Positions 2,125 to 22,895 of a DNA stretch of 22,895 nt are shown here, piece by piece. The stretch comes from a virus. Within the stretch, counting starts at the first letter, position 1. Every line of letters begins with the position of its first letter. The notes beneath the pieces are model-generated. The model did not search any database, was not told the DNA's origin, and saw nothing but the letters and a program-made list of their open reading frames with translations. Where the stretch lies: IMG/VR virus record IMGVR_UViG_3300003635_000026, positions 1-22,895 of that record, one strand, 5' to 3'. Both the position numbers and the translations under genes were made by a program.

Positions 2125-3003
2125 ATGAGTGAAGCAGAGTTCGCCGGTATCGGCACAGCGCACCTCTCCTCGGAACTTGATTCCGATGGTCCCTACACGA
2201 TCAGTGGTGTCGCTCTCGGTGCTGGCGACGTAACCGTCGGTTCCTCCGGGATCAAGAAGCATTGGCCTGCTGAGGAACTCAAGGAAGCTGCTGAAACTCT
2301 CGAAGGTCAGCCTCTGGTAAAGGACCACGAAAACAACACTGACGGACGAGTCGGTACGGTTACCGAAGCGTACTACAAGTCTGGTGTCGGTGTGATGTAC
2401 GAGGCCGAGCTTGCTCCTCACTACGAGGAACTCGCCCAAGACATCGCAGCCGGTATTCAGGAAGTCAGTGCTCGTGCCTACCACGATCCTGTAGACGAGC
2501 TTGAGGAGGACGAGGACACTGGTGCCCTTCGCACCTCGAACGTTGTCTTCGACAACCTCAGCGTCGTCTCACAGGGCGCTGCTCCGTCCAACACCGCCGA
2601 GATCGGTGGACTGGACGTGAGCGGTGCCGTGGCAATGGCACAGGGTCCGTCGGGCGATGCGGTGGCAACCCTCGAACAGGGTGCTCCGCGACCTGACGGA
2701 CACGTGGACGAGTCCGAGAACCGGCTTCATGGGGACCACGAGGAGCGTCCCGATGAGTCCAACATGCCCAAGGAAACTGTCGGCGATACTCCCGAGTGGG
2801 AAGAAGGCGACATGGTCCGATGGCAGGTTGAGCCGGATCTCTTTGGCAAGATCGTCCACGTGGACGACGAGAAGAACGTGGCGATGGTGGAGATCATGGG
2901 TATGGAGTCTGGCGAAATGACTTCGACCGGCTTCACCATCACCGCAGGCTTCTCTGACCGTTCCGGAGTCCAAGGCGGACATGTCTGGACACGGCATGGG
3001 TAA
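2125..3003 (+). CDS. Prohead (capsid maturation) protease
   Basis: This 292-residue protein looks like an HK97/XkdF-type prohead protease, which cleaves scaffold and capsid N-termini in the prohead. The first 160 residues show the usual beta layout: GVALGAGDVTVGSSGIKKHW, then the motif GQPLVKDHENNTDGRVGTV with the candidate catalytic His, and later AGIQEVSARAYHDP plus FDNLSVVSQGAAPSNTAEIG, where the Ser residues expected of this serine protease fold lie. Residues about 225-275 (EEGDMVRWQVEPDLFGKIVH...) form a second, SH3-like domain. The start follows GTGATC at 2115-2120. The last 15 or so residues look unnatural (DRSGVQGGHVWTRHG), while the +1 frame continues with family-like sequence. The true protein therefore probably extends into the following frame, which overlaps this one by 23 bp. 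Confidence 0.78.
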   Translation: MSEAEFAGIGTAHLSSELDSDGPYTISGVALGAGDVTVGSSGIKKHWPAEELKEAAETLEGQPLVKDHENNTDGRVGTVTEAYYKSGVGVMYEAELAPHYEELAQDIAAGIQEVSARAYHDPVDELEEDEDTGALRTSNVVFDNLSVVSQGAAPSNTAEIGGLDVSGAVAMAQGPSGDAVATLEQGAPRPDGHVDESENRLHGDHEERPDESNMPKETVGDTPEWEEGDMVRWQVEPDLFGKIVHVDDEKNVAMVEIMGMESGEMTSTGFTITAGFSDRSGVQGGHVWTRHG

Positions 3004-4123
3004 GGACAAGGACGACGAGGAGGACATGTCTGAGGGCGACGAAGCTGGCGATGTGGCCGAACTCAAGTCGGTTGCAGGCGTCACCTTCGACGGCAAGTCT
3101 GACGGGAAGCTCGACGAGAGTGAGATCCCGAACGACGACTACGAACAGCACTACCTGTTCCCCGACGACACCAAGTCCGACTCGTCCTACCCCGTGGTCG
3201 ATGCAGAGGGCAACCTCCGAGCGGGTAACGTTGCAGCAGCGCACCAACTCGGTGCCCGAGGAGGCGTGAGTGAGGATTCCCTCAAGGAGAAGCTCATGGC
3301 TCTGAACAAGGAGTGGCCCGAGGGAGAACGACCAATCGACATGGAGTCCGATGGTGAGGACTCCGAGGAAAACAGTGCAGCCACCACGGACGATGACGCT
3401 CAGAACGAGCAGAGTACCCTGACTGTTGCTGCACTAAGCGATCATTCACACAACACCAACGATTCAATCATGACAGATACGATCCAGTATGACAACGCGA
3501 CCGAGGATGACATCGAGGAGATGTCCGAGCCGGTCGTAATCGAGCAGGACGACGTGGAGTCTCTCCGAGACAAGGCTGACGAGGCCGACGAGCTTTCGGA
3601 GCGTCTCGACAACCTGAACAGTTCGCTCGACGAACTCGCACAGAATCAGGAAGCACTCGAAGACGTTGACGAGGACCGCCTCGACGAGCTTCGGGAGTAC
3701 GACGAGGCCGTCGTGCTGACCGAGGACGAGCACGAGGAGCTTCAGGGCCTCGTTGACGACATCGGTCAGGTCTTCTCGGAGGAACTCGCAGAGTACTCCG
3801 CATTCGAGGCCGAGGAGCTTCAGGAGCGGTTCACTCCGCTCGAACTCCGCGACAAGGTCGAGTCTCACGACGAGGCGTCCGTTGCCTCCGAACTCGGCGA
3901 GTCCACTGAGGACCCCGAGCCGGAAGGCGGTTCGGCAGACCCCGAGGAGCTTTCGGAGTCCGTCGAGGACGCCGAGACAGAGGCAACTGAGGAGGAACTC
4001 CGTGAGGCTGTTGCGGAGCACCTCGAAGACGGTAAGCTCTACCGTCAGGCAGAGAAGGTTCGTGAGGGAGACATCTCCCTCGACGAGATGGGCCTCGACG
4101 TTGAGAGCGTCGTTGCCGAGTAA
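2981..4123 (+). CDS. Protease C-terminal region plus scaffold protein (overlaps the protease in +1 frame)
   Basis: This reading frame encodes 380 very acidic residues. Residues about 20-110 (AELKSVAGVTFDGKSDGKLD, YLFPDDTKSDSSYPVVDAEG, LRAGNVAAAHQLGARGGV) resemble a domain that I associate with the C-terminal part of phage head proteases rather than with scaffolds. From about residue 164 the protein changes to long Glu/Asp/Leu-rich coiled coil, typical of a capsid scaffold that is lost or cleaved during maturation. The frame overlaps the end of the protease by 23 bp. The ATG at 2981 has only a weak preceding AAGGCGG, so expression may be by coupling or by +1 frameshifting from the protease. 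A Met at 3470 probably gives the free scaffold. The arrangement resembles lambda C/Nu3, where scaffold is nested in the 3' end of the protease gene. Confidence 0.68.
   Translation: MSGHGMGKDKDDEEDMSEGDEAGDVAELKSVAGVTFDGKSDGKLDESEIPNDDYEQHYLFPDDTKSDSSYPVVDAEGNLRAGNVAAAHQLGARGGVSEDSLKEKLMALNKEWPEGERPIDMESDGEDSEENSAATTDDDAQNEQSTLTVAALSDHSHNTNDSIMTDTIQYDNATEDDIEEMSEPVVIEQDDVESLRDKADEADELSERLDNLNSSLDELAQNQEALEDVDEDRLDELREYDEAVVLTEDEHEELQGLVDDIGQVFSEELAEYSAFEAEELQERFTPLELRDKVESHDEASVASELGESTEDPEPEGGSADPEELSESVEDAETEATEEELREAVAEHLEDGKLYRQAEKVREGDISLDEMGLDVESVVAE
3470..4123 (+). CDS. Internally initiated scaffold protein (nested, same frame)
   Basis: An in-frame ATG at 3470 begins a 217-residue product consisting only of the coiled-coil part (MTDTIQYDNATEDDIEEMSE onwards). 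The 40 bases before it are CA-rich and resemble the leaders of neighbouring capsid genes, and the residues they encode (ALSDHSHNTNDSI) look like translated leader rather than protein domain. Heptad-like Leu and Glu run through LRDKADEADELSERLDNLNS, and the C-terminal end (LREAVAEHLEDGKLYRQAEK) carries the basic residues that scaffolds often use to contact capsid protein. This start is inferred from sequence context; lambda Nu3 is the known precedent for a nested scaffold. Confidence 0.5.
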   Translation: MTDTIQYDNATEDDIEEMSEPVVIEQDDVESLRDKADEADELSERLDNLNSSLDELAQNQEALEDVDEDRLDELREYDEAVVLTEDEHEELQGLVDDIGQVFSEELAEYSAFEAEELQERFTPLELRDKVESHDEASVASELGESTEDPEPEGGSADPEELSESVEDAETEATEEELREAVAEHLEDGKLYRQAEKVREGDISLDEMGLDVESVVAE

Positions 4124-7275: not shown

Positions 7276-8592
7276 ATGGCAAGCACAACAACTTATGGCG
7301 ACTTTCCGGGTGTGAAGGTCACGACCGCCGGTGGCGCTATCACAGGCGTAGCCGTCGGTCGTGAGCAGAAGCTCGTGCTCGTCGGCATCGGAGATCCCGC
7401 GAACGGATCTGCATCGGTCAACACGGCCACGCAGGTTGCTTCGCGTCTCGATGCTGACAATAAGTTCGGTGATGGCTCCGAGCTTGCAGAGCAGATGAAG
7501 GATGCTCTCGCAAACGGTGCCAACATCGACTTCCTCTACGGCGTCATGCCGTCGGTTACGACGGTCACGGACGAGAACTTCACGAGCACGTCTTTCACGC
7601 TCGCTAACGCACCGATCATCGAAGACCTGTCCACGATTACGATCACGGACACTGTCAATACCATCGACCTCGATGTCGAGTTCCGGTACGACAGTCCTCC
7701 AGCATCTCCGGGAGATACGGACACTGCCTTCATCAACCCCATTACGGGTGAGGTGGAGATCAACTCCGCAGAATCGGACTTCAACGTGGACTACGACTAC
7801 CCGGACATTGCGTCTGCCCGCACCGAAGCCGAGACGGTTATCGGCGACGAGGAGACGGGCATCATCGCGCAACTGTTCGAGGCAGAGGACGAGGCAACCA
7901 ACCTCTCCGGTTCCGTGAATACTCTCCGTGGCGAGTACAAGCTCGCTATGGGTGTGCAGGCTGCACAGCCGAACGGGAACCAGACTGAGGACAACGGTGC
8001 CTACTACGACACCGGAGCCTACACGGATAGCATCGACAACGACTCGATGTTCCTCCACGCTCCTGCCCGAAAGGACGAGTCCAAGGTCACCATCACTGGT
8101 GCCCTCTCGGGCTACATGGCAGGCGCAGCACTCGGTCCCGGCGGATCGATCTACGGTGACAACCTCACGGTAGACGATCTCGACCAGAAGCTCAGTAAGA
8201 GCGAGGCCGACGACCTTCGGGACGTGCAGGTCATGCCGATCCGACAGCCACCGCAGGGTGGTTCGATCGAGATCAATGACAACATCTCCACGTCCACGGA
8301 GACGGACTGGGTCCGTGACTACTGGCGTCGTCGTATCGTTGATCAGGCGATCCTCATCGCCAAGACCGTTGGTGACTCCATCATCGGTCGGATCAACGAC
8401 GAGCGGACGCGAGACACGGTTCAGTCCACCATCCAGTCGGAACTGAAGGGCCTGAACGAGGATCGGCTCATCACCGACAACTACTTCGTCGATGTCTACG
8501 AGGTCGATTCAGACACCGTGGGCATCGACCTTGGCATCACGCCGTACGGCATCGTAAAGCGCGTGGATGTCAGCATCACGATCAACACGTAA
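7276..8592 (+). CDS. Contractile tail sheath protein
   Basis: The 438-residue product is a tail sheath subunit, which polymerises around the tube and contracts on infection. The N-terminus (YGDFPGVKVTTAGGAITGVA, VGREQKLVLVG) has the usual Pro-Gly-Val beta start, and the middle forms variable surface domains. The C-terminal third shows the conserved family core: a long helix WVRDYWRRRIVDQAILIAKT, GRINDERTRDTVQSTIQSEL, a Leu-Asn-Glu-Asp linker, NYFVDVYEVDSDTVGIDLGI, and a terminal strand VKRVDVSITINT that in known sheaths joins neighbouring subunits. This gene makes the virus a myovirus type. The ATG follows a short CA-rich leader (cataacactacaaca), with no Shine-Dalgarno. Confidence 0.88.
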   Translation: MASTTTYGDFPGVKVTTAGGAITGVAVGREQKLVLVGIGDPANGSASVNTATQVASRLDADNKFGDGSELAEQMKDALANGANIDFLYGVMPSVTTVTDENFTSTSFTLANAPIIEDLSTITITDTVNTIDLDVEFRYDSPPASPGDTDTAFINPITGEVEINSAESDFNVDYDYPDIASARTEAETVIGDEETGIIAQLFEAEDEATNLSGSVNTLRGEYKLAMGVQAAQPNGNQTEDNGAYYDTGAYTDSIDNDSMFLHAPARKDESKVTITGALSGYMAGAALGPGGSIYGDNLTVDDLDQKLSKSEADDLRDVQVMPIRQPPQGGSIEINDNISTSTETDWVRDYWRRRIVDQAILIAKTVGDSIIGRINDERTRDTVQSTIQSELKGLNEDRLITDNYFVDVYEVDSDTVGIDLGITPYGIVKRVDVSITINT

Positions 8593-8603
8593 GGTGAATT
8601 AAC

Positions 8604-9101
8604 ATGCCAGCACCAGAACACACGAGCCGAGTAACCGGTCAGGAAGCAGTCGTTAAGATTCCCAACTCCGCAGGCGACGAAATCGCTGTCACGAACGTCT
8701 CGTTCGACATCGAAGTCAACACGACGGACGTGCAGACGGATCAGAGCCTTCGGGCGAACATCGCAACGACTGGCCTCCGGTATTCCGGCTCCTTCGAATA
8801 CGACGGATCGCAGGACAAGATTCGCGCAAAGCTGTTCTACACAGCGGGCGAATCCAGTTACCACGAGGCCGGTGAGCCGAAGCGAGTGACCATGACGGTC
8901 AAGGAGGAGCAGCCCGACGAGTCTGCTAACGCAGCGACCAACGCTCGCACGTGGACGCTCGAAAACGTCATCGTCACGGGCATGTCACGCGACATCCCTG
9001 CCGACGACGTGGCCTCGACTTCGTGGGACTTCGAGGCAGAGGACGCATACGTCTCCAGCGGTGGATTCGACGGATCGTCCAGCCGAGTCAACAACGAGTA
9101 A
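8604..9101 (+). CDS. Tail tube protein
   Basis: This 165-residue protein directly follows the sheath gene, the fixed position of the tail tube subunit in contractile systems. Its sequence is strand-rich: VTGQEAVVKIPNSAGDEIAV, FDIEVNTTDVQTDQSLRANI, GLRYSGSFEYDGSQDKIRAK, RTWTLENVIVTGMSRDIPAD, and a closing SWDFEAEDAYVSSG. This agrees with the tail tube/Hcp fold, including a paired strand with a charged loop in the middle. The start follows GGTGA at 8593-8597. About 100 bases of pyrimidine-rich non-coding DNA follow it, the largest gap in the tail cluster except for the promoter regions. Confidence 0.82.
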   Translation: MPAPEHTSRVTGQEAVVKIPNSAGDEIAVTNVSFDIEVNTTDVQTDQSLRANIATTGLRYSGSFEYDGSQDKIRAKLFYTAGESSYHEAGEPKRVTMTVKEEQPDESANAATNARTWTLENVIVTGMSRDIPADDVASTSWDFEAEDAYVSSGGFDGSSSRVNNE

Positions 9102-9203
9102 TCCCACACCAGCTACCCCTTTCTTTGTCGCACCCCATCCCTTTCTTTGGGGGCAACCCACTCCGACTGTTTCTCCACCCCACATAACCCAAGTGATACA
9201 ACA
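9102..9203 (+). terminator. Pyrimidine-rich spacer, possible partial terminator
   Basis: The spacer contains two copies of CCCTTTCTTTG (9117-9127 and 9139-9149). It also has a weak stem, CCCC at 9133-9136 with GGGG at 9149-9152, extended past a bulged A by GC pairs at 9130-9131 and 9153-9154. Archaeal termination often relies on T-rich tracts, so this may reduce transcription between the abundant tube protein and the scarce chaperone. No poly-T run longer than three is present, so the call is weak. Confidence 0.3.
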
Positions 9204-9656
9204 ATGAGTAACGTTGACGCGATGGACTTCTACAAGCGAGTAACGGAATCCGAAAACGAGGTACGCGAGTACACCCTTGAGCACGAGTCTGGTGCCGAGT
9301 TGAACGTCGAACTGACGGTCGTTAACCGTAAGACCCTGCTCGACGAGATCAACCGGCTCCCTGACGCGATGCTGGAGACACTCTCGCAGGCCGAAGACGA
9401 AGACGAAGCGCAGGAGATGGCTGAGGAGCAGAACATGCTCTCGAACGTCAACGGGGACACGATCCTCGCGTTCGAGAACATCTGCGTTGCCTCGATGAAC
9501 CACGACGAACTGACGAGTCACAACTTCGAGGAGATCGTGGCCGAACTCGACTTCGAGACGCTGTTCGAGATCGGGTCTGAGGTCATCGAGATGTCCTTCG
9601 AGGAGACTGGCTCCATCAAAGATTTTCACGCGGTGGACTCGGACAAGAACTCCTAA
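9204..9656 (+). CDS. Tail assembly chaperone, G-type short product
   Basis: This acidic 150-residue protein lies between the tail tube and tape measure genes, where tailed phages encode the tail assembly chaperone. It is mainly helical (KTLLDEINRLPDAMLETLSQ, EAQEMAEEQNMLSNVNGDTI) with a beta start (REYTLEHESGAELNVELTVV). I chose ATG 9204 because GTGAT at 9193-9197 and a CA-rich leader precede it; the in-frame ATG at 9147 would read non-coding-like pyrimidine-rich DNA. A second frame follows that has no start of its own and can be reached only by a -1 shift before the stop at 9654. As in lambda G and GT, the short form should be abundant and the long form rare. Confidence 0.75.
   Translation: MSNVDAMDFYKRVTESENEVREYTLEHESGAELNVELTVVNRKTLLDEINRLPDAMLETLSQAEDEDEAQEMAEEQNMLSNVNGDTILAFENICVASMNHDELTSHNFEEIVAELDFETLFEIGSEVIEMSFEETGSIKDFHAVDSDKNS
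9623..9629 (+). promoter_or_regulatory. Candidate -1 slippery site T TTT CAC
   Basis: In the chaperone frame the codons are gat ttt cac. The Phe tRNA on TTT can re-pair with TTT one base back. It is the best of the runs between 9581 and 9656, although the A-site codon is not a canonical match. Confidence 0.4.
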
Positions 9657-10054
9657 CGCTCCACCAAGCGGGCTATCAGTTCACGATAGAGGAGGAGTTC
9701 GATTGCCCGCGATGTGAGGGCGAGGGCACCGAGTCCATCGACCTCACTGCTGAGGTTCTTGGACGAGAACTCGGCATCACGGGCGTCCTCACGAAGACGT
9801 GCGAGCGGTGTGACGGAAGCGGAGAGATAGAAGTCGTTCGGGATGCTCGGCTGGAGGATCTCAGCGACATTCAGGTAAAGACACTCCTACACGCTGACAT
9901 CTACCGGGAATCCGGCGGTGAAGAAGCGAAGAAGGAGCAGCAGCGTGCGCAACGCATGCAACGGCGTGGTGCCGGTGGACCGAAACAGGGGAATCCACAG
10001 GCACGACCCACGAATAAGACCGGACGCGAAGCGTTGTCCGGCAACAACTTTTAA
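9626..10054 (+). CDS. T-type extension of the tail assembly chaperone, read by -1 frameshift
   Basis: The -1 frame is open from 9581 to the stop at 10052-10054 and has no ATG, GTG or TTG until an ATG near 9956, so it is readable only as an extension of the chaperone. If slippage occurs at the TTTT at 9623-9626, the fusion has about 283 residues. The extension begins with natural sequence (GQELLTLHQAGYQFTIEEEF). It then shows two CXXCXGXG motifs, CPRCEGEG from 9704 and CERCDGSG from 9800, 32 residues apart, as in the zinc-binding region of DnaJ. The rest is a charged helix rich in Gln, Arg and Lys. GT-type proteins bind the tape measure and recruit tube subunits. The slip site is inferred, but the need for a frame change is plain. 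Confidence 0.75.
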   Translation, partial: SRGGLGQELLTLHQAGYQFTIEEEFDCPRCEGEGTESIDLTAEVLGRELGITGVLTKTCERCDGSGEIEVVRDARLEDLSDIQVKTLLHADIYRESGGEEAKKEQQRAQRMQRRGAGGPKQGNPQARPTNKTGREALSGNNF

Positions 10055-10076
10055 CCCCACTTGTTCCACCTAATTC

Positions 10077-13000
10077 ATGGCTGATTGGTCCGTAGTAGGA
10101 GAGATCCTTGGAGAAACCAACCTCGATGAGGTTGGAGAATCCGTAGAGCGTAGTCTCCAAGACGCTGCGAATGCCACACAGAAGGCAGCAGCAGGCTCCG
10201 AAGATATGGAGAAGGCGATGGACAGTGCCACCGAAGCTGTCGCTTCACTTTCTGGCGCGTCCAGAGACGCCGACGAGCAACTCGAAGAAGTCGAGGCGGA
10301 GATGGAAGACATCGTCACAGATGCCGGTGCAGCAGCCGGTTCTGTGCAGATCCTCAACTCATCGCTTCAGGGGATCGAAGATGTTGACGACCTCGACATC
10401 GATGTTAATACCAACATCGACGAGTTGAACGAATCGTGGGCCAAGATGCGAAACGAGATCGACGACTTCGAGCATCGTTTCGATGATATTATCCCACGTG
10501 GCGGAGGTGGAGGCGCACCCATTAGTGATTTCCTCGGCGACCAGCGCGAGTTCGAGAACGCGATGGACACGCTGGACAATGCTGAGGACACCATGCAATC
10601 CATCGCCGACGAGCGCGAGAGCGCGATGGGTGGTGGACGAGGTATCTCTGATCCGTTTAGACGCATCGATACCGGTGGCGACGTATTTAGACGCAGACTT
10701 GCTGAAGGACTCAGCCCCGGTGGTGGCAAAAGCGTCGTCAACGCCGGTCGTCTATCAAGTACGCTCGGTGGAGAACGACAGGCAGGCGACCTCGCCCGTG
10801 CCCTCTCACGACGCTCTGACATCGGTAGTAGCTTTGGCGAAGCCCTTAGTGCAGTAATCGAAGCCGGTGACTTCAACGAAGCTGCCGAGGAGTTCGGTCG
10901 GCAGATGGCAGATGTGGATCGTGTGCCAGCCCTGCCACCGGGAGAGGGCATCGACACGCCTGATCGGTTCAACCGACGCTTCGATACGCCACGGACCGCA
11001 GGGACGCTCCGTGGAATGGGCGTCGATATGTCGGGGCAGATTCCGGTAGACGAAGTCATGGAGGCCGAACCCGGCGCATTCGGCGAAGGATTCGTCGGGA
11101 TGCAGGAGGATCTCAGCCTCCGACAGCGTGGTCGAGCCATCGACATGGGCGCACTCGACTTCGATCAACTCATGGGTGGCCTCAACGAGCCGGTCACGAT
11201 GGCGCAGGACGAACTCCGTGAGTTCCACGAGCGCACTGGCGATGCGACGGAAAGCAGTTCACGCCTGAGTGACGCGCTCGATCGAGCTTCGACCCGTGTT
11301 CGTGATGCTGGCCGACGTGCTCGCGTTCGTGCTGGTGGCATCGGTGAGGGTATCACCGGTGGCATGACAGGCGACATCATGGACATGCGCGGTGGTGGCG
11401 ACGGTGGCACCGCACGTAGCTTCCGTCGTACCCGAGAGGCGCTCGGTGACCTCTCAGAGGGTGCCGTCCAGAGTAACACCACACTGGGCTTCATGATCGC
11501 CACAATGACGCTGGCGTCCGGTTCAGCCCGGAACATGGAGCACGCAGTCGAAGAACTGGACGAGGACGTTGAGGACCTCGCACGTTCCCTCTCAGCAGCA
11601 GCACCTGCTGTTCAGAACCTCTCCGCGAACCTCGGTCCGTTCAACGTCAGCATGAGCAACCTGCTGGTCACGATCCCGGCCCTGATCGCCACTGTTGGTC
11701 CGTTCATCGCAGTACTGGCCGGACTCGCTGGCGCAATACTGGCTGTCGTTGGTGCCTTCGGAGCACTGCTCGCTGTTGGCGCGATCGGATTCGTCGAGGA
11801 TCTGAAGAATAACTTCGCCGAGATCGAGTCCACCAGCGATGCCCTCATGGTCATCATGCGGGGCCTCAAGGAGGCCATTATCGATGCCCTCGCTCCACTC
11901 GAAGATGTCGAAATCGGTGGCCTCGGCGCACAGGGTATCTTCGTGACCGTCCTCCGTGATCTCGTTGCACTGATCAACATGTTCGCGGAGGCAGCAGCAG
12001 CCCTCCTCAACATGGACGTTGTCGAGGACTTCCTCCTCAACCTCCGTGCTGCGGTCCTCGGCTTCTCGGATGCGACTGAAGGTGGCATCTCGATGATCGA
12101 CGGACTCAAGCAGATGATGGCAGGAGCACTGCCGGTCCTCGAAGGCTTCCTGATCTGGCTCATCGACGTGTTCCCCGAGTTTATGGCCTTCATCGGGGAG
12201 ATCACAAGCGAGGCCGGACCAGCAATGGCGCAGTTCGCTAACGCACTCCTCCGCCTCAGCGTCCTGCTGACGGAAGCTGGTACGGGTGCCATGAGCGTGC
12301 TGTTCCCGGCACTCGCAATGGTGTTCGACGTACTCAGCCTCCTGCTCGGTGCGATGATCGCATTCGAGCGAATGCTCGGTGACGTGTCGAACGTCCTCAT
12401 CGCAGTTGCAGGTGGTGCCCTGTTCGCTGGCGCAGCACTGATCAAGATGGTCAGTACGCTCGACTCGGCGTTCGAGGCAGCAGCCACCGTCACGAGTACG
12501 CTCGACGCGATGAATGGTGCTGTTGCAGAGTCCGACACTGTGTTCGAGGCGTACCAGAAGTCGGTTCGGAACACCAACAGTTCGATGGTCAGGTTCGCAC
12601 ACCTGAGCCTCGTTGCGATGGGGCGTCTGATCGTCCTCGCAGCCGGGCTGTACCTCGTGCTGGACGCGCTCGGACTCCTCGAACCACTGATCTCCCTCGT
12701 GTCCGACAACCTCGGTCCGCTCATCGACGGCATCACTGACGCAACTGATGCGATGGGCAACGCGGTCGGTGTCGGTGACACGTTCACCCGCGTGATCGAG
12801 TTCATGACGGGTACGTTGCTTCTCGCAGCCTTCGCTGGATCGTTCTTCACAGGGTCCATGTGGTCGGCTGTCACAGCGATGGGTGGCTTCGTCACGAGCG
12901 CACTCGGTGTGATCGGTGTTCTGAGCGCGATGATCACCGAACTGATCATCAACACCGGCGGACTGTGGGGCCTCATCAGTGCCGAGACGACGGCAACGAT

Positions 13001-14300
13001 CGTCACTGAGGGCTTCACCGGAGCCGTCTGGAGTGCCGTGGCAAGCCTCTCCGCGCTTCAGATCGTTACGGGCGTAGCTGTCGTGGCAGCAATTGCCCTG
13101 CTTGCGTCAGAGATGCTCGGCTTCACTGACGTGATCGACACGACAACGCAGGCCATCCTCGCAGCCGTAGCAGCCATTACGGTTGCATTCCTCGGCTCTG
13201 GATGGGGAGCGATCATCGTGGCAGTTGGCCTCCTGATCGCAGCCCTGATCAACCTCGAAAAGGTTGTTGGGCCGGTGGCAGCCGGTGTCATCGCAGCAAT
13301 CGGCGCAATTACCGCAGCATTCCTTGGCTCTGGATGGGGTGCCATCATCGTGGCACTTGGGCTTGCAGCAGCAGCCATCTACATGCTCGGGAAGCGGTTC
13401 GGCTGGCTCAAGGTCATCGCCATCGCAGCTATCGGAGCGATCACCGCAGCACTGGTTGGCTCCGGATGGGGTGCCATCATCGTTGGCATCGGACTGCTCC
13501 TGCTCCTTCTGATGGAGTACTGGGACGAGCTTGCTGGCGCAGTCGAGGGCGCTATCAGTTGGTTCGACAACCTCGGACCGGCTGGTAAGGCAGCGATCAT
13601 GGCGATCCTGCTCCCACTCTCACCACTGCTCGCAACCCTGCTCGCAGTTCGTGAGGCAATCGGCCTCATTCTGAACCCGCAGAAGCGTCAGAAGTGGTGG
13701 AACGCCATTCAGAATGGCATTGATGGTATCATCGACACCGTCAAAGGCATCATCGACTGGGTCATCCTGCTGTTCACCGACCCGATGTCTGCACTCGGGC
13801 AACTGTACCAGAGCATCATGCGAGGAATCAACAACATCCTCGGACGCCTTGGCGGTCAATCTGGTCGTCAGGGTGGTGGCGATGGTATTCAGGGCACTGG
13901 AAGCTCGGTGCTCGCTGGAGCAGCAGCCGGAGCAGCAGCCGGATCGGTCATCCCCGGTGTCGGGACCGTAACTGGTGCCGTTGTCGGTGGAACCGCAGGG
14001 CTGGTTGACGAGCACGTCTTCGACCTCCCCGTCCTCCAGAAGGGTGGCTTCATCCAGCGGTCTGGACTGGCCTACCTCCACTCGAACGAGATGGTCGTGC
14101 CACAGCACATGTTCGCTGACGCGGACGTGAACACTGGCGCACAGACTGGTGGTGGACGAACCACAGCCACTGGCGGTACGACGGTCAACGTCAACATCCA
14201 AGGCGATGGGAGCGATATTGACGACCGACGCGCCCGTCAGATCGGACGGATTGCACGGAACTCGGTTGCAGAGCAGCGGAGATACGAAGATGGACGATAA
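10077..14300 (+). CDS. Tail tape measure protein
   Basis: This is the largest gene, encoding 1407 residues, and it follows the frameshifted chaperone as usual. The tape measure sets tail length and is ejected into the host with the DNA. The first 500 residues are charged and helical with Gly-rich linkers. From about residue 525 (PALIATVGPFIAVLAGLAGA) many long hydrophobic helices alternate with short acidic ones. Three tandem 44-residue units, residues about 1024-1155, each contain GSGWGAII. Residues about 1279-1311 form a Gly/Ala zipper (AGAAAGAAAGSVIPGVGTVT). The C-terminus (LQKGGFIQRSGLAYLHSNEM) is typical of tape measures. The ATG lacks a Shine-Dalgarno; a TTTTAA about 26 bases upstream could give a leaderless transcript. 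No peptidase or lysozyme motif is seen. Confidence 0.88.
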   Translation: MADWSVVGEILGETNLDEVGESVERSLQDAANATQKAAAGSEDMEKAMDSATEAVASLSGASRDADEQLEEVEAEMEDIVTDAGAAAGSVQILNSSLQGIEDVDDLDIDVNTNIDELNESWAKMRNEIDDFEHRFDDIIPRGGGGGAPISDFLGDQREFENAMDTLDNAEDTMQSIADERESAMGGGRGISDPFRRIDTGGDVFRRRLAEGLSPGGGKSVVNAGRLSSTLGGERQAGDLARALSRRSDIGSSFGEALSAVIEAGDFNEAAEEFGRQMADVDRVPALPPGEGIDTPDRFNRRFDTPRTAGTLRGMGVDMSGQIPVDEVMEAEPGAFGEGFVGMQEDLSLRQRGRAIDMGALDFDQLMGGLNEPVTMAQDELREFHERTGDATESSSRLSDALDRASTRVRDAGRRARVRAGGIGEGITGGMTGDIMDMRGGGDGGTARSFRRTREALGDLSEGAVQSNTTLGFMIATMTLASGSARNMEHAVEELDEDVEDLARSLSAAAPAVQNLSANLGPFNVSMSNLLVTIPALIATVGPFIAVLAGLAGAILAVVGAFGALLAVGAIGFVEDLKNNFAEIESTSDALMVIMRGLKEAIIDALAPLEDVEIGGLGAQGIFVTVLRDLVALINMFAEAAAALLNMDVVEDFLLNLRAAVLGFSDATEGGISMIDGLKQMMAGALPVLEGFLIWLIDVFPEFMAFIGEITSEAGPAMAQFANALLRLSVLLTEAGTGAMSVLFPALAMVFDVLSLLLGAMIAFERMLGDVSNVLIAVAGGALFAGAALIKMVSTLDSAFEAAATVTSTLDAMNGAVAESDTVFEAYQKSVRNTNSSMVRFAHLSLVAMGRLIVLAAGLYLVLDALGLLEPLISLVSDNLGPLIDGITDATDAMGNAVGVGDTFTRVIEFMTGTLLLAAFAGSFFTGSMWSAVTAMGGFVTSALGVIGVLSAMITELIINTGGLWGLISAETTATIVTEGFTGAVWSAVASLSALQIVTGVAVVAAIALLASEMLGFTDVIDTTTQAILAAVAAITVAFLGSGWGAIIVAVGLLIAALINLEKVVGPVAAGVIAAIGAITAAFLGSGWGAIIVALGLAAAAIYMLGKRFGWLKVIAIAAIGAITAALVGSGWGAIIVGIGLLLLLLMEYWDELAGAVEGAISWFDNLGPAGKAAIMAILLPLSPLLATLLAVREAIGLILNPQKRQKWWNAIQNGIDGIIDTVKGIIDWVILLFTDPMSALGQLYQSIMRGINNILGRLGGQSGRQGGGDGIQGTGSSVLAGAAAGAAAGSVIPGVGTVTGAVVGGTAGLVDEHVFDLPVLQKGGFIQRSGLAYLHSNEMVVPQHMFADADVNTGAQTGGGRTTATGGTTVNVNIQGDGSDIDDRRARQIGRIARNSVAEQRRYEDGR
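13146..13541 (+). repeat. Three tandem 132-bp units inside the tape measure gene
   Basis: Units at 13146-13277, 13278-13409 and 13410-13541 each encode 44 residues with the core AI-x-AITAA-x-x-GSGWGAII-V. The GGCTCTGGATGGGG core recurs at 13194, 13326 and 13458 (the last with one change), exactly 132 bases apart. Flanks are more divergent, so the duplication is not very recent. Confidence 0.85.
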
Positions 14301-21853: not shown

Positions 21854-22895
21854 ATGACAGAAAAAGTTAATCCGTCTATCAACCGACCGGCAGAGGCATT
21901 CAAGACAGCAGGAGCAATTGCACTTGCAGGAGGTGCTGGCGATGGGTATATTAGCCCTGCCGACAGTACTTCAGAAATTGCAGTACAAGATGCAGGAATT
22001 ACTGACAGTAATCTCAACGCCTTCAGCGAATCGAGTGGCGCAGCATCGCTCGATGTGGATATTGATGGCGGTGAGGCATTTATCTTCGGGTCGTGGCTTG
22101 CTATCGATACAGTAACGACAGTCTCACTTTCAGCAAGTACGATCGGACAAACGGTGTACGTCGGATGGAACAAAGATGGTACTGATGATGTAATCATCGG
22201 CCTTCAATCTGCGTTCGATTCAGCGAGCGGGAATGCCGACCAGAAGATTCCATTGTACGAGTACGACACTGATGGAACTGGAGTTACGGCTGTCACTGAT
22301 GTTCGAAGTGTTGGACAGGAGAGTCCAACAGAACAGATTACGACTGAGCGAATTGCATCTTCATTCGAGGAGGCAAACGTTTCGCTTACTGGTGGACTGT
22401 TTGCATCTGGTGGAAGTCTTACTGGCTCGACTACCCCACCGTTGAACGATTCCTTCGATGTGAGTACTGAAGACGGCTCCCCGCAAGGCCTCACCTTCAA
22501 TGGAGATGGGAGTCAACTCTACATTATTGGGTTCGGCTCTGGTTCTGTCTACTCGTACACCCTCGGGACAAATTACGACATTAGCACAGCCTCGTTGAAT
22601 AATTCCTTCGATGTGAGTACTGAAGAAAGTTCCCCGTCAGGCCTCACCTTCAACGGAGATGGGAGTCAACTCTACATTATTGGGTTTGGCTCTAATTCTG
22701 TCTACTCGTACACTCTCGGGACAAATTACGACATTAGCACAGCCTCGGTGAATAATTCCTTCGATGTGAGTACTGAAGACAATATCCCGAACGGCTTCAC
22801 CTTCAATGGAGATGGGAGTCAACTCTACATTATTGGGAATGGCTCTGATTCTGTCTACTCGTACTCTCTCGGGACGAATTACGACATTAGCACAG
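21854..22895 (+). CDS. Tail fibre / adhesin with propeller-type repeats (3' end outside window)
   Basis: The frame starts at ATG 21854 and is open to the window end, giving 347 residues without a stop. Residues 1-180 hold a fibre base domain (SINRPAEAFKTAGAIALAGG, AFIFGSWLAIDTVTTVSLSA, TVYVGWNKDGTDDVIIGL, KIPLYEYDTDGTGVTAVTDV) like that seen in haloarchaeal viral fibres. A short Gly/Ser linker follows. From about 22449 a 51-residue unit repeats: SFDVSTED-x-x-P-x-GLTFNGDG, SQLYIIG-x-GS-x-SVYSYTLG, TNYDISTAS. This is a beta-propeller blade pattern, probably for receptor binding. Codons are AT-richer (att, aat, tac-tcg) than in the capsid and tail genes, suggesting separate origin. There is no clear Shine-Dalgarno. 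Confidence 0.75.
   Translation, partial: MTEKVNPSINRPAEAFKTAGAIALAGGAGDGYISPADSTSEIAVQDAGITDSNLNAFSESSGAASLDVDIDGGEAFIFGSWLAIDTVTTVSLSASTIGQTVYVGWNKDGTDDVIIGLQSAFDSASGNADQKIPLYEYDTDGTGVTAVTDVRSVGQESPTEQITTERIASSFEEANVSLTGGLFASGGSLTGSTTPPLNDSFDVSTEDGSPQGLTFNGDGSQLYIIGFGSGSVYSYTLGTNYDISTASLNNSFDVSTEESSPSGLTFNGDGSQLYIIGFGSNSVYSYTLGTNYDISTASVNNSFDVSTEDNIPNGFTFNGDGSQLYIIGNGSDSVYSYSLGTNYDIST
22451..22895 (+). repeat. Tandem 153-bp repeats in the fibre gene
   Basis: TCCTTCGATGTGAGTACTGA begins units at 22451, 22604 and 22757, exactly 153 bases (51 codons) apart; the array runs past the window end. Units one and two differ at about 11 of 153 positions, so the duplication is recent or maintained by recombination. 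Confidence 0.9.

Follow-up and report, generated by a model that had tools for sequence, protein, structure and literature searches.

The question raised by this locus is how a virus might translate a reading frame that has no start codon near its beginning. The window, by which we mean the whole 22,895-nucleotide stretch of DNA that was analyzed, carries two small overlapping frames between its tail tube and tape measure genes, and the genes of this tail region, like the overlap and its slip site, lie on the forward strand. The first frame (positions 9204 to 9656) begins with ATG, ends with a TAA codon at 9654 to 9656, and encodes a candidate G-like tail assembly chaperone of 150 amino acids. 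The second is an open frame in the -1 register (9581 to 10054) that overlaps the 3′ end of G and holds the T part. An earlier reading of the sequence alone (hereafter the sequence-only reading) had placed the chaperone stop at 9654 and the overlapping frame at 9581 to 10054, and our reading of the open reading frames confirms both. Upstream are the genes for the tail sheath (7276 to 8592; phrog_10244, E 5e-105), whose presence marks the virus as contractile-tailed, and for the tail tube protein (8604 to 9101; weak matches to phrog_365 / phrog_12452). Downstream is the gene for a tape measure protein of 1407 amino acids (10077 to 14300; phrog_1272 / phrog_788). Among isolates, Halogranum tailed virus 1 (HGTV-1) comes closest, and it has the same order of tube, G, T in the -1 frame, and tape measure. 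By this gene order and by the identities with HGTV-1 (48.5% for the sheath and 45% for G), the window may belong with Halomagnusviridae.

Two other regions of the window deserve mention in their own right. The head maturation region (2125 to 4123) comprises overlapping frames in different registers (2125 to 3003 and 2981 to 4123), and HGTV-1 has a single long prohead protease gene (8822 to 11488) at this position. In the window, the second frame possibly begins at its own start codon at 2981, or the region has been recoded or divided in some other way. In addition, the last open reading frame (22390 to 22895), which is cut by the end of the window, finishes in near-identical repeats of the form FDVSTEDxSPxGLTFNGDGSQLYIIGxGSxSVYSYxLGTNYDIST. 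These repeats are propeller-like and probably belong to a tail fibre or adhesin.

Homologues of G that are 40-95% identical occur in HGTV-1 and in IMG/VR contigs, and no relatives were found in contigs of cellular genomes. Although G has no direct match to chaperone family models, a G profile aligns with the chaperones of HF2 and HSTV-2 (hhalign E 1e-4, probability 57%), which clearly belong to tail-chaperone families. An AlphaFold model of G (mean pLDDT 75) resembles tail chaperones of prophages and has as its top structure matches 3fgx (Z 6.6), the HK97 tail chaperone 2ob9 (Z 5.4), YqbN 3klu (Z 4.7), and 5ir0 (Z 3.6), with the next-ranked, unrelated structure at Z 2.2, and these Z scores are below the level that would be safe alone. 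A Foldseek search of the PDB with the same model returned nothing significant (the HK97 chaperone appeared at E 0.7), and a search of BFVD gave one unnamed match below E 0.001 along with weak matches to annotated tail chaperones. Gene position, the HF2/HSTV-2 profile match, and the predicted structure are each modest alone, but they agree in suggesting that G is a tail assembly chaperone.

To compare the locus among relatives, we used chaperone searches of IMG/VR, which yielded contigs from different metagenomes, to assemble a set of 24 non-redundant sequences that includes the window and HGTV-1. The T part that would follow the shift (9626 to 10054) begins SRGGLGQELL, runs for 142 amino acids plus the stop, and shows similarity to DnaJ-type zinc fingers. 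As the sequence-only reading had stated, this frame has no start codon of its own: the first ATG, GTG, or TTG in the -1 frame of the window is an ATG at 9956, which is 333 nt past the slip site. Likewise, 21 of the 24 sequences have none from the opening of the T frame to 36 nt past the slip. These observations bear on the possibility that T is a separate protein, made from its own start by ribosomes that re-initiate, or initiate internally, past the stop of G. Such a start has been annotated for gp20 of HGTV-1, where a TTG lies just after the stop of gp19, and two further sequences (L046 and L047) have TTG at the equivalent place. However, the conserved T sequence FSRxxLGQEL starts at the junction, upstream of that TTG, and a separate T protein would also leave the invariant slip DNA described below unexplained. 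We therefore consider a separately initiated T protein very improbable, and the refuting case named by the sequence-only reading, in which related viruses provide T with a start of its own, is not borne out as a conserved feature.

The T frame is under purifying selection. Relative to the nearest relative (L003), the window carries 10, 5, and 39 substitutions at codon positions 1, 2, and 3, respectively, corresponding to a dN of 0.06, a dS of 0.44, and a dN/dS of about 0.14. Codon usage is uninformative as proof of coding. The log-odds per codon of the T frame in the window are about neutral (-0.01, versus +0.43 for the 0-frame of G), and the remaining two forward readings of the T stretch score -0.34 and -0.46. 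Thus, the earlier description of a good coding frame holds with respect to selection but not with respect to codon bias. A lone metagenomic contig could carry an indel, and the split might stem from faulty sequencing or from decay of the gene. Yet the same split recurs in all 24 sequences, which represent independent assemblies from different metagenomes together with the HGTV-1 isolate genome, and both frames are under purifying selection. It is hardly credible, therefore, that an indel conceals a single intact frame.

The T part has its own peculiarity. The window and its clade carry two CxxCxGxG motifs (9700 to 9825 in the window) that resemble a DnaJ zinc finger and that are lacking in the T parts of HGTV-1-like viruses. 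The resemblance consists of a match to Pfam PF00684 that falls below the cut-off (E 1.3e-4) and of structural similarity to domains of the DnaJ type (Z 4.8), which suggests that the T domain of tail chaperones in this clade carries a zinc-finger-like insert. The T part alone found no match at E 1 among phage records.

If T is reached by a frameshift, then a slip site should reside near the 3′ end of G. The window has TTTT at 9623 to 9626 followed by CAC, and we assign the slip site to A_GAT_TTT_C (9620 to 9627), with U_UUU at 9623 to 9626 as its core. In all 24 sequences the T frame is in the -1 register after the same spot, close to where G ends, and at this spot the 0-frame of all 24 reads, in register, G(A/G)T TTT C. 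The alignment of related haloviruses proposed by the sequence-only reading thus does reveal conserved bases, GRTTTTC. The heptamer is G_GAT_TTT in 15 sequences, A_GAT_TTT in 5, A_GGT_TTT in 2, and C_GGT_TTT and G_GGT_TTT in 1 each, and the codon that follows TTT is CAC, CAG, CAA, CGC, or CGA. The first base of the heptamer is therefore largely free, whereas GRU_UUU_C is fixed.

This conservation acts on bases rather than on residues. From a codon alignment of G for the 24 sequences, Fitch changes were counted on the protein tree at the third position of 39 columns with a nearly constant, degenerate amino acid. Both slip codons have zero changes, compared with 3-12 at the other 37 conserved columns and 3-5 at the four other invariant Phe columns of G. 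Furthermore, GAT and TTT run against local codon preference (34% and 8% in the window), and four lineages that have Gly in place of Asp at the first slip codon still retain T as its third base. Because third positions do not change, the codons are disfavored, and T is kept even under Gly, we conclude that the bases themselves are preserved, as would be required for tRNA-Phe to re-pair from one UUU to an overlapping UUU. The motif itself is not rare, since GRTTTTC occurs 3 times on both strands of the window when 3.9 matches are expected; it is the in-register conservation among relatives that stands above chance.

The place of the shift is further constrained in HGTV-1 (L002/L029) and in two other lineages (L037 and L049). 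In these sequences, a -1-frame stop precedes the site with only a single codon between this stop and TTT, and a 0-frame stop follows 12 nt after the slip site. Therefore, the shift must occur at or just after the slip site, and in this short stretch GATTTTC is the sole element common to all sequences.

The same bases could instead favor slippage by RNA polymerase, which might add one U at the T run and thereby create a longer mRNA whose normal translation would give an identical GT protein. The conserved core is indeed a T run. However, no lineage among the 24 has a lengthened run, and four T residues make a very short run for programmed transcriptional slippage. We regard this route as very unlikely. 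A forward slip, +2 in effect, is also conceivable because on TTT C the tRNA-Phe could move +1 (UUU to UUC), and the site proposed for +1 shifts in related haloviruses of the HF1 group is TTT-CGN (PMC7230728). Against this explanation, every relative has T in the -1 frame. Moreover, a T immediately 5′ of TTT would be needed for a backward slip alone, and it is present in all 24 sequences but in none of the seven +1-type viruses that were examined. A forward slip at this site thus seems exceedingly unlikely.

The locus thus has two overlapping frames that are both under selection, slip DNA that does not vary, and a T part without a start. A G/GT-type -1 programmed frameshift, as the sequence-only reading had proposed, very probably explains these features in the window and its relatives, and among the possibilities considered it is the only one that fits all of these genomes. 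Judged from this comparative evidence, a virus of haloarchaea almost certainly makes two tail chaperone products from one message by a -1 slip.

The sequence-only reading favored T TTT CAC as the slip sequence. The TTTT core of this candidate is upheld, but its register is not, because it would position CAC in the A site, where re-pairing of tRNA-His to UCA would fail. The heptamer, moved by three bases, is instead A_GAT_TTT (9620 to 9626) followed by C, and therefore the slipping tRNA would be tRNA-Phe on U_UUU. We infer the slipping by the ribosome, its frequency, and the roles of the products along the following lines. With the 0-frame codons GAT TTT (9621 to 9626) in place, tRNA-Phe would be paired with UUU at 9624 to 9626, and a minority of ribosomes would move back one base to the overlapping UUU at 9623 to 9625. 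The next codon would then be TCA instead of CAC, and reading would continue TCA CGC GGT. The predicted product is a GT fusion of 283 amino acids (9204 to 10054), in which residues 1-141 of G, ending in SIKDF, are joined to SRGGLGQ. A simultaneous slip of tRNA-Asp is possible, with partial re-pairing in the 15 sequences that have G_GAT_TTT; the A that begins the window heptamer would make P-site re-pairing of tRNA-Asp poor, which counts somewhat against the -1 reading. Whether tRNA-Phe slips alone or with tRNA-Asp, both routes would lead to the same protein. By analogy with lambda gpG and gpGT, G might form a coat on the tape measure protein, with recruitment of the tail tube subunit falling to the T part.

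No conserved stimulator of the slip is evident from these comparisons. A possible RNA structure downstream of the site (9627 to 9711; z -2.3 in the window) is at most a weak, lineage-specific candidate: relative to shuffled sequences, the mean z over 12 relatives is about -1.43, with some relatives reaching -3.3, and these 12 have no fold in common. We rejected it as a stimulator for want of a common fold and because equally low values arise elsewhere in G (mean z -1.55 versus -1.43). Nor do the aligned sequences have a Shine-Dalgarno-like element in common in their 5′ flank.

Comparison with known systems begins with lambda G/GT, which this locus resembles in the order of tube, G, T, and tape measure, in a T frame that is -1 and has no start, and in a slip near the 3′ end of G. 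It differs in that the site is A_GAT_TTT_C rather than a G_GGA_AAG-like heptamer, in that no family-level sequence similarity of the window G to gpG was found, and in the zinc-finger-like insert of T. The gp19 and gp20 proteins of HGTV-1 (Halomagnusviridae) are direct homologues, with slip DNA G_GAT_TTT_C, but they are annotated as two unrelated hypothetical proteins, with gp20 beginning at TTG, and the T part of HGTV-1 lacks the CxxCxGxG insert.

Haloviral G/GT frameshifting has already been reported, with ordinary heptamers for -1 shifts or TTT-CGN for +1 shifts. Among haloarchaeal tailed viruses, -1 chaperone frameshifts have been predicted for HVTV-1, HCTV-1, -2, -5, and Hardycor1 (PMC5009743, PMC8211752, PMC7911831). 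Standard heptamers are found in HCTV-1, -2, -5, and Hardycor1, the last of which has G_GGA_AAT (PMC7911831). HATV-2 is annotated with a -1 shift, and by our own reading its slip site is A_AAA_AAC. Reviews of haloviral frameshifts name only HVTV-1, HCTV-1, -2, -5, and HSTV-2. What is new here is that HGTV-1-like viruses have the GRU_UUU_C signal, that they conserve it, and that they would make a GT protein absent from the annotation, together with hints, described below, that the -1 and +1 shifts of related haloviruses use about the same Phe codon; an earlier mention of HGTV-1 is nevertheless possible. The suggestion that haloarchaea may use a signal unlike that of bacteria is only partly sustained. 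The signal of this lineage is unusual and, as had been noted, not a textbook heptamer: the window sequence A_GAT_TTT does not conform to X_XXY_YYZ, and among the 24 sequences only L047 (G_GGT_TTT) does. However, other haloviruses use standard heptamers, and G_GAU_UUU and G_GGU_UUU are already functional in eukaryotic RNA viruses. The exact G_GAU_UUU heptamer is present in 15 of the 24 sequences, and the window differs from it in beginning with A. GGATTTT also fits a two-one-four motif listed by a frameshift predictor that was trained on phage records (PMC10885494).

The umbravirus PEMV2 uses G_GAU_UUU, and changing its four U residues reduces frameshifting to near background (PMC4737148). In the same virus, frameshifting is 112% with G_GGU_UUU and still 36-40% when re-pairing in the P site is blocked (PMC4737148), results that fit a site with an essential U_UUU and a tolerant first base. 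Both this heptamer and that of BYDV (G_GGU_UUU) are of the same type as the site described here, and both variants occur in the window family. Nevertheless, PEMV2 and BYDV are unrelated plant RNA viruses that rely on a strong 3′ RNA structure, which was not found here.

A further comparison is with the HF1/HF2/HSTV-2 group (Hafunaviridae). The G profiles are related, the T profiles match over a short helix, and in both groups the slip is at UUU-C near the end of G. The Phe codons of the two groups nearly coincide in position (KDFH versus EKFR), a correspondence that is offset by one residue and read from a profile alignment ending about ten residues before this codon. The HF1-group viruses have TTT-CGC and are thought to shift +1 (PMC7230728), and seven Hafunaviridae-type genomes have T in the +1/-2 frame downstream of TTT CG(C/T), which is preceded by AAG, TCC, or GAA, so the base before TTT is never T. 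We also note that the HF2-type chaperone shift (L021-L028) is given as -2 in GenBank records and as +1 in the HF1-group paper; TTT CGN preceded by a base other than T suits +1 slippage of tRNA-Phe to UUC.

It is quite possible, although we would not yet call it probable, that one ancestral Phe UUU-C codon near the end of the chaperone gene is the pivot for opposite shifts in related archaeal tailed viruses. Plausibly, a preceding U (GRU_UUU_C) would direct the -1 shift in HGTV-1-like viruses, and a preceding base other than U (TTT CGN) would direct the +1 shift in Hafunaviridae. If so, then local substitutions around a single tRNA can switch the direction of an essential programmed frameshift. 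Few cases of programmed frameshifting are known in archaea, and most haloviral ones have been predicted from single genomes; here, deep conservation pins the signal to seven bases. The site has a U_UUU core and a first base that is almost free, and no conserved stimulator is evident; it thus offers a test substrate for slipping by the archaeal ribosome. Since related haloviruses have contrasting +1 sites, what sets the direction of the shift is directly testable.
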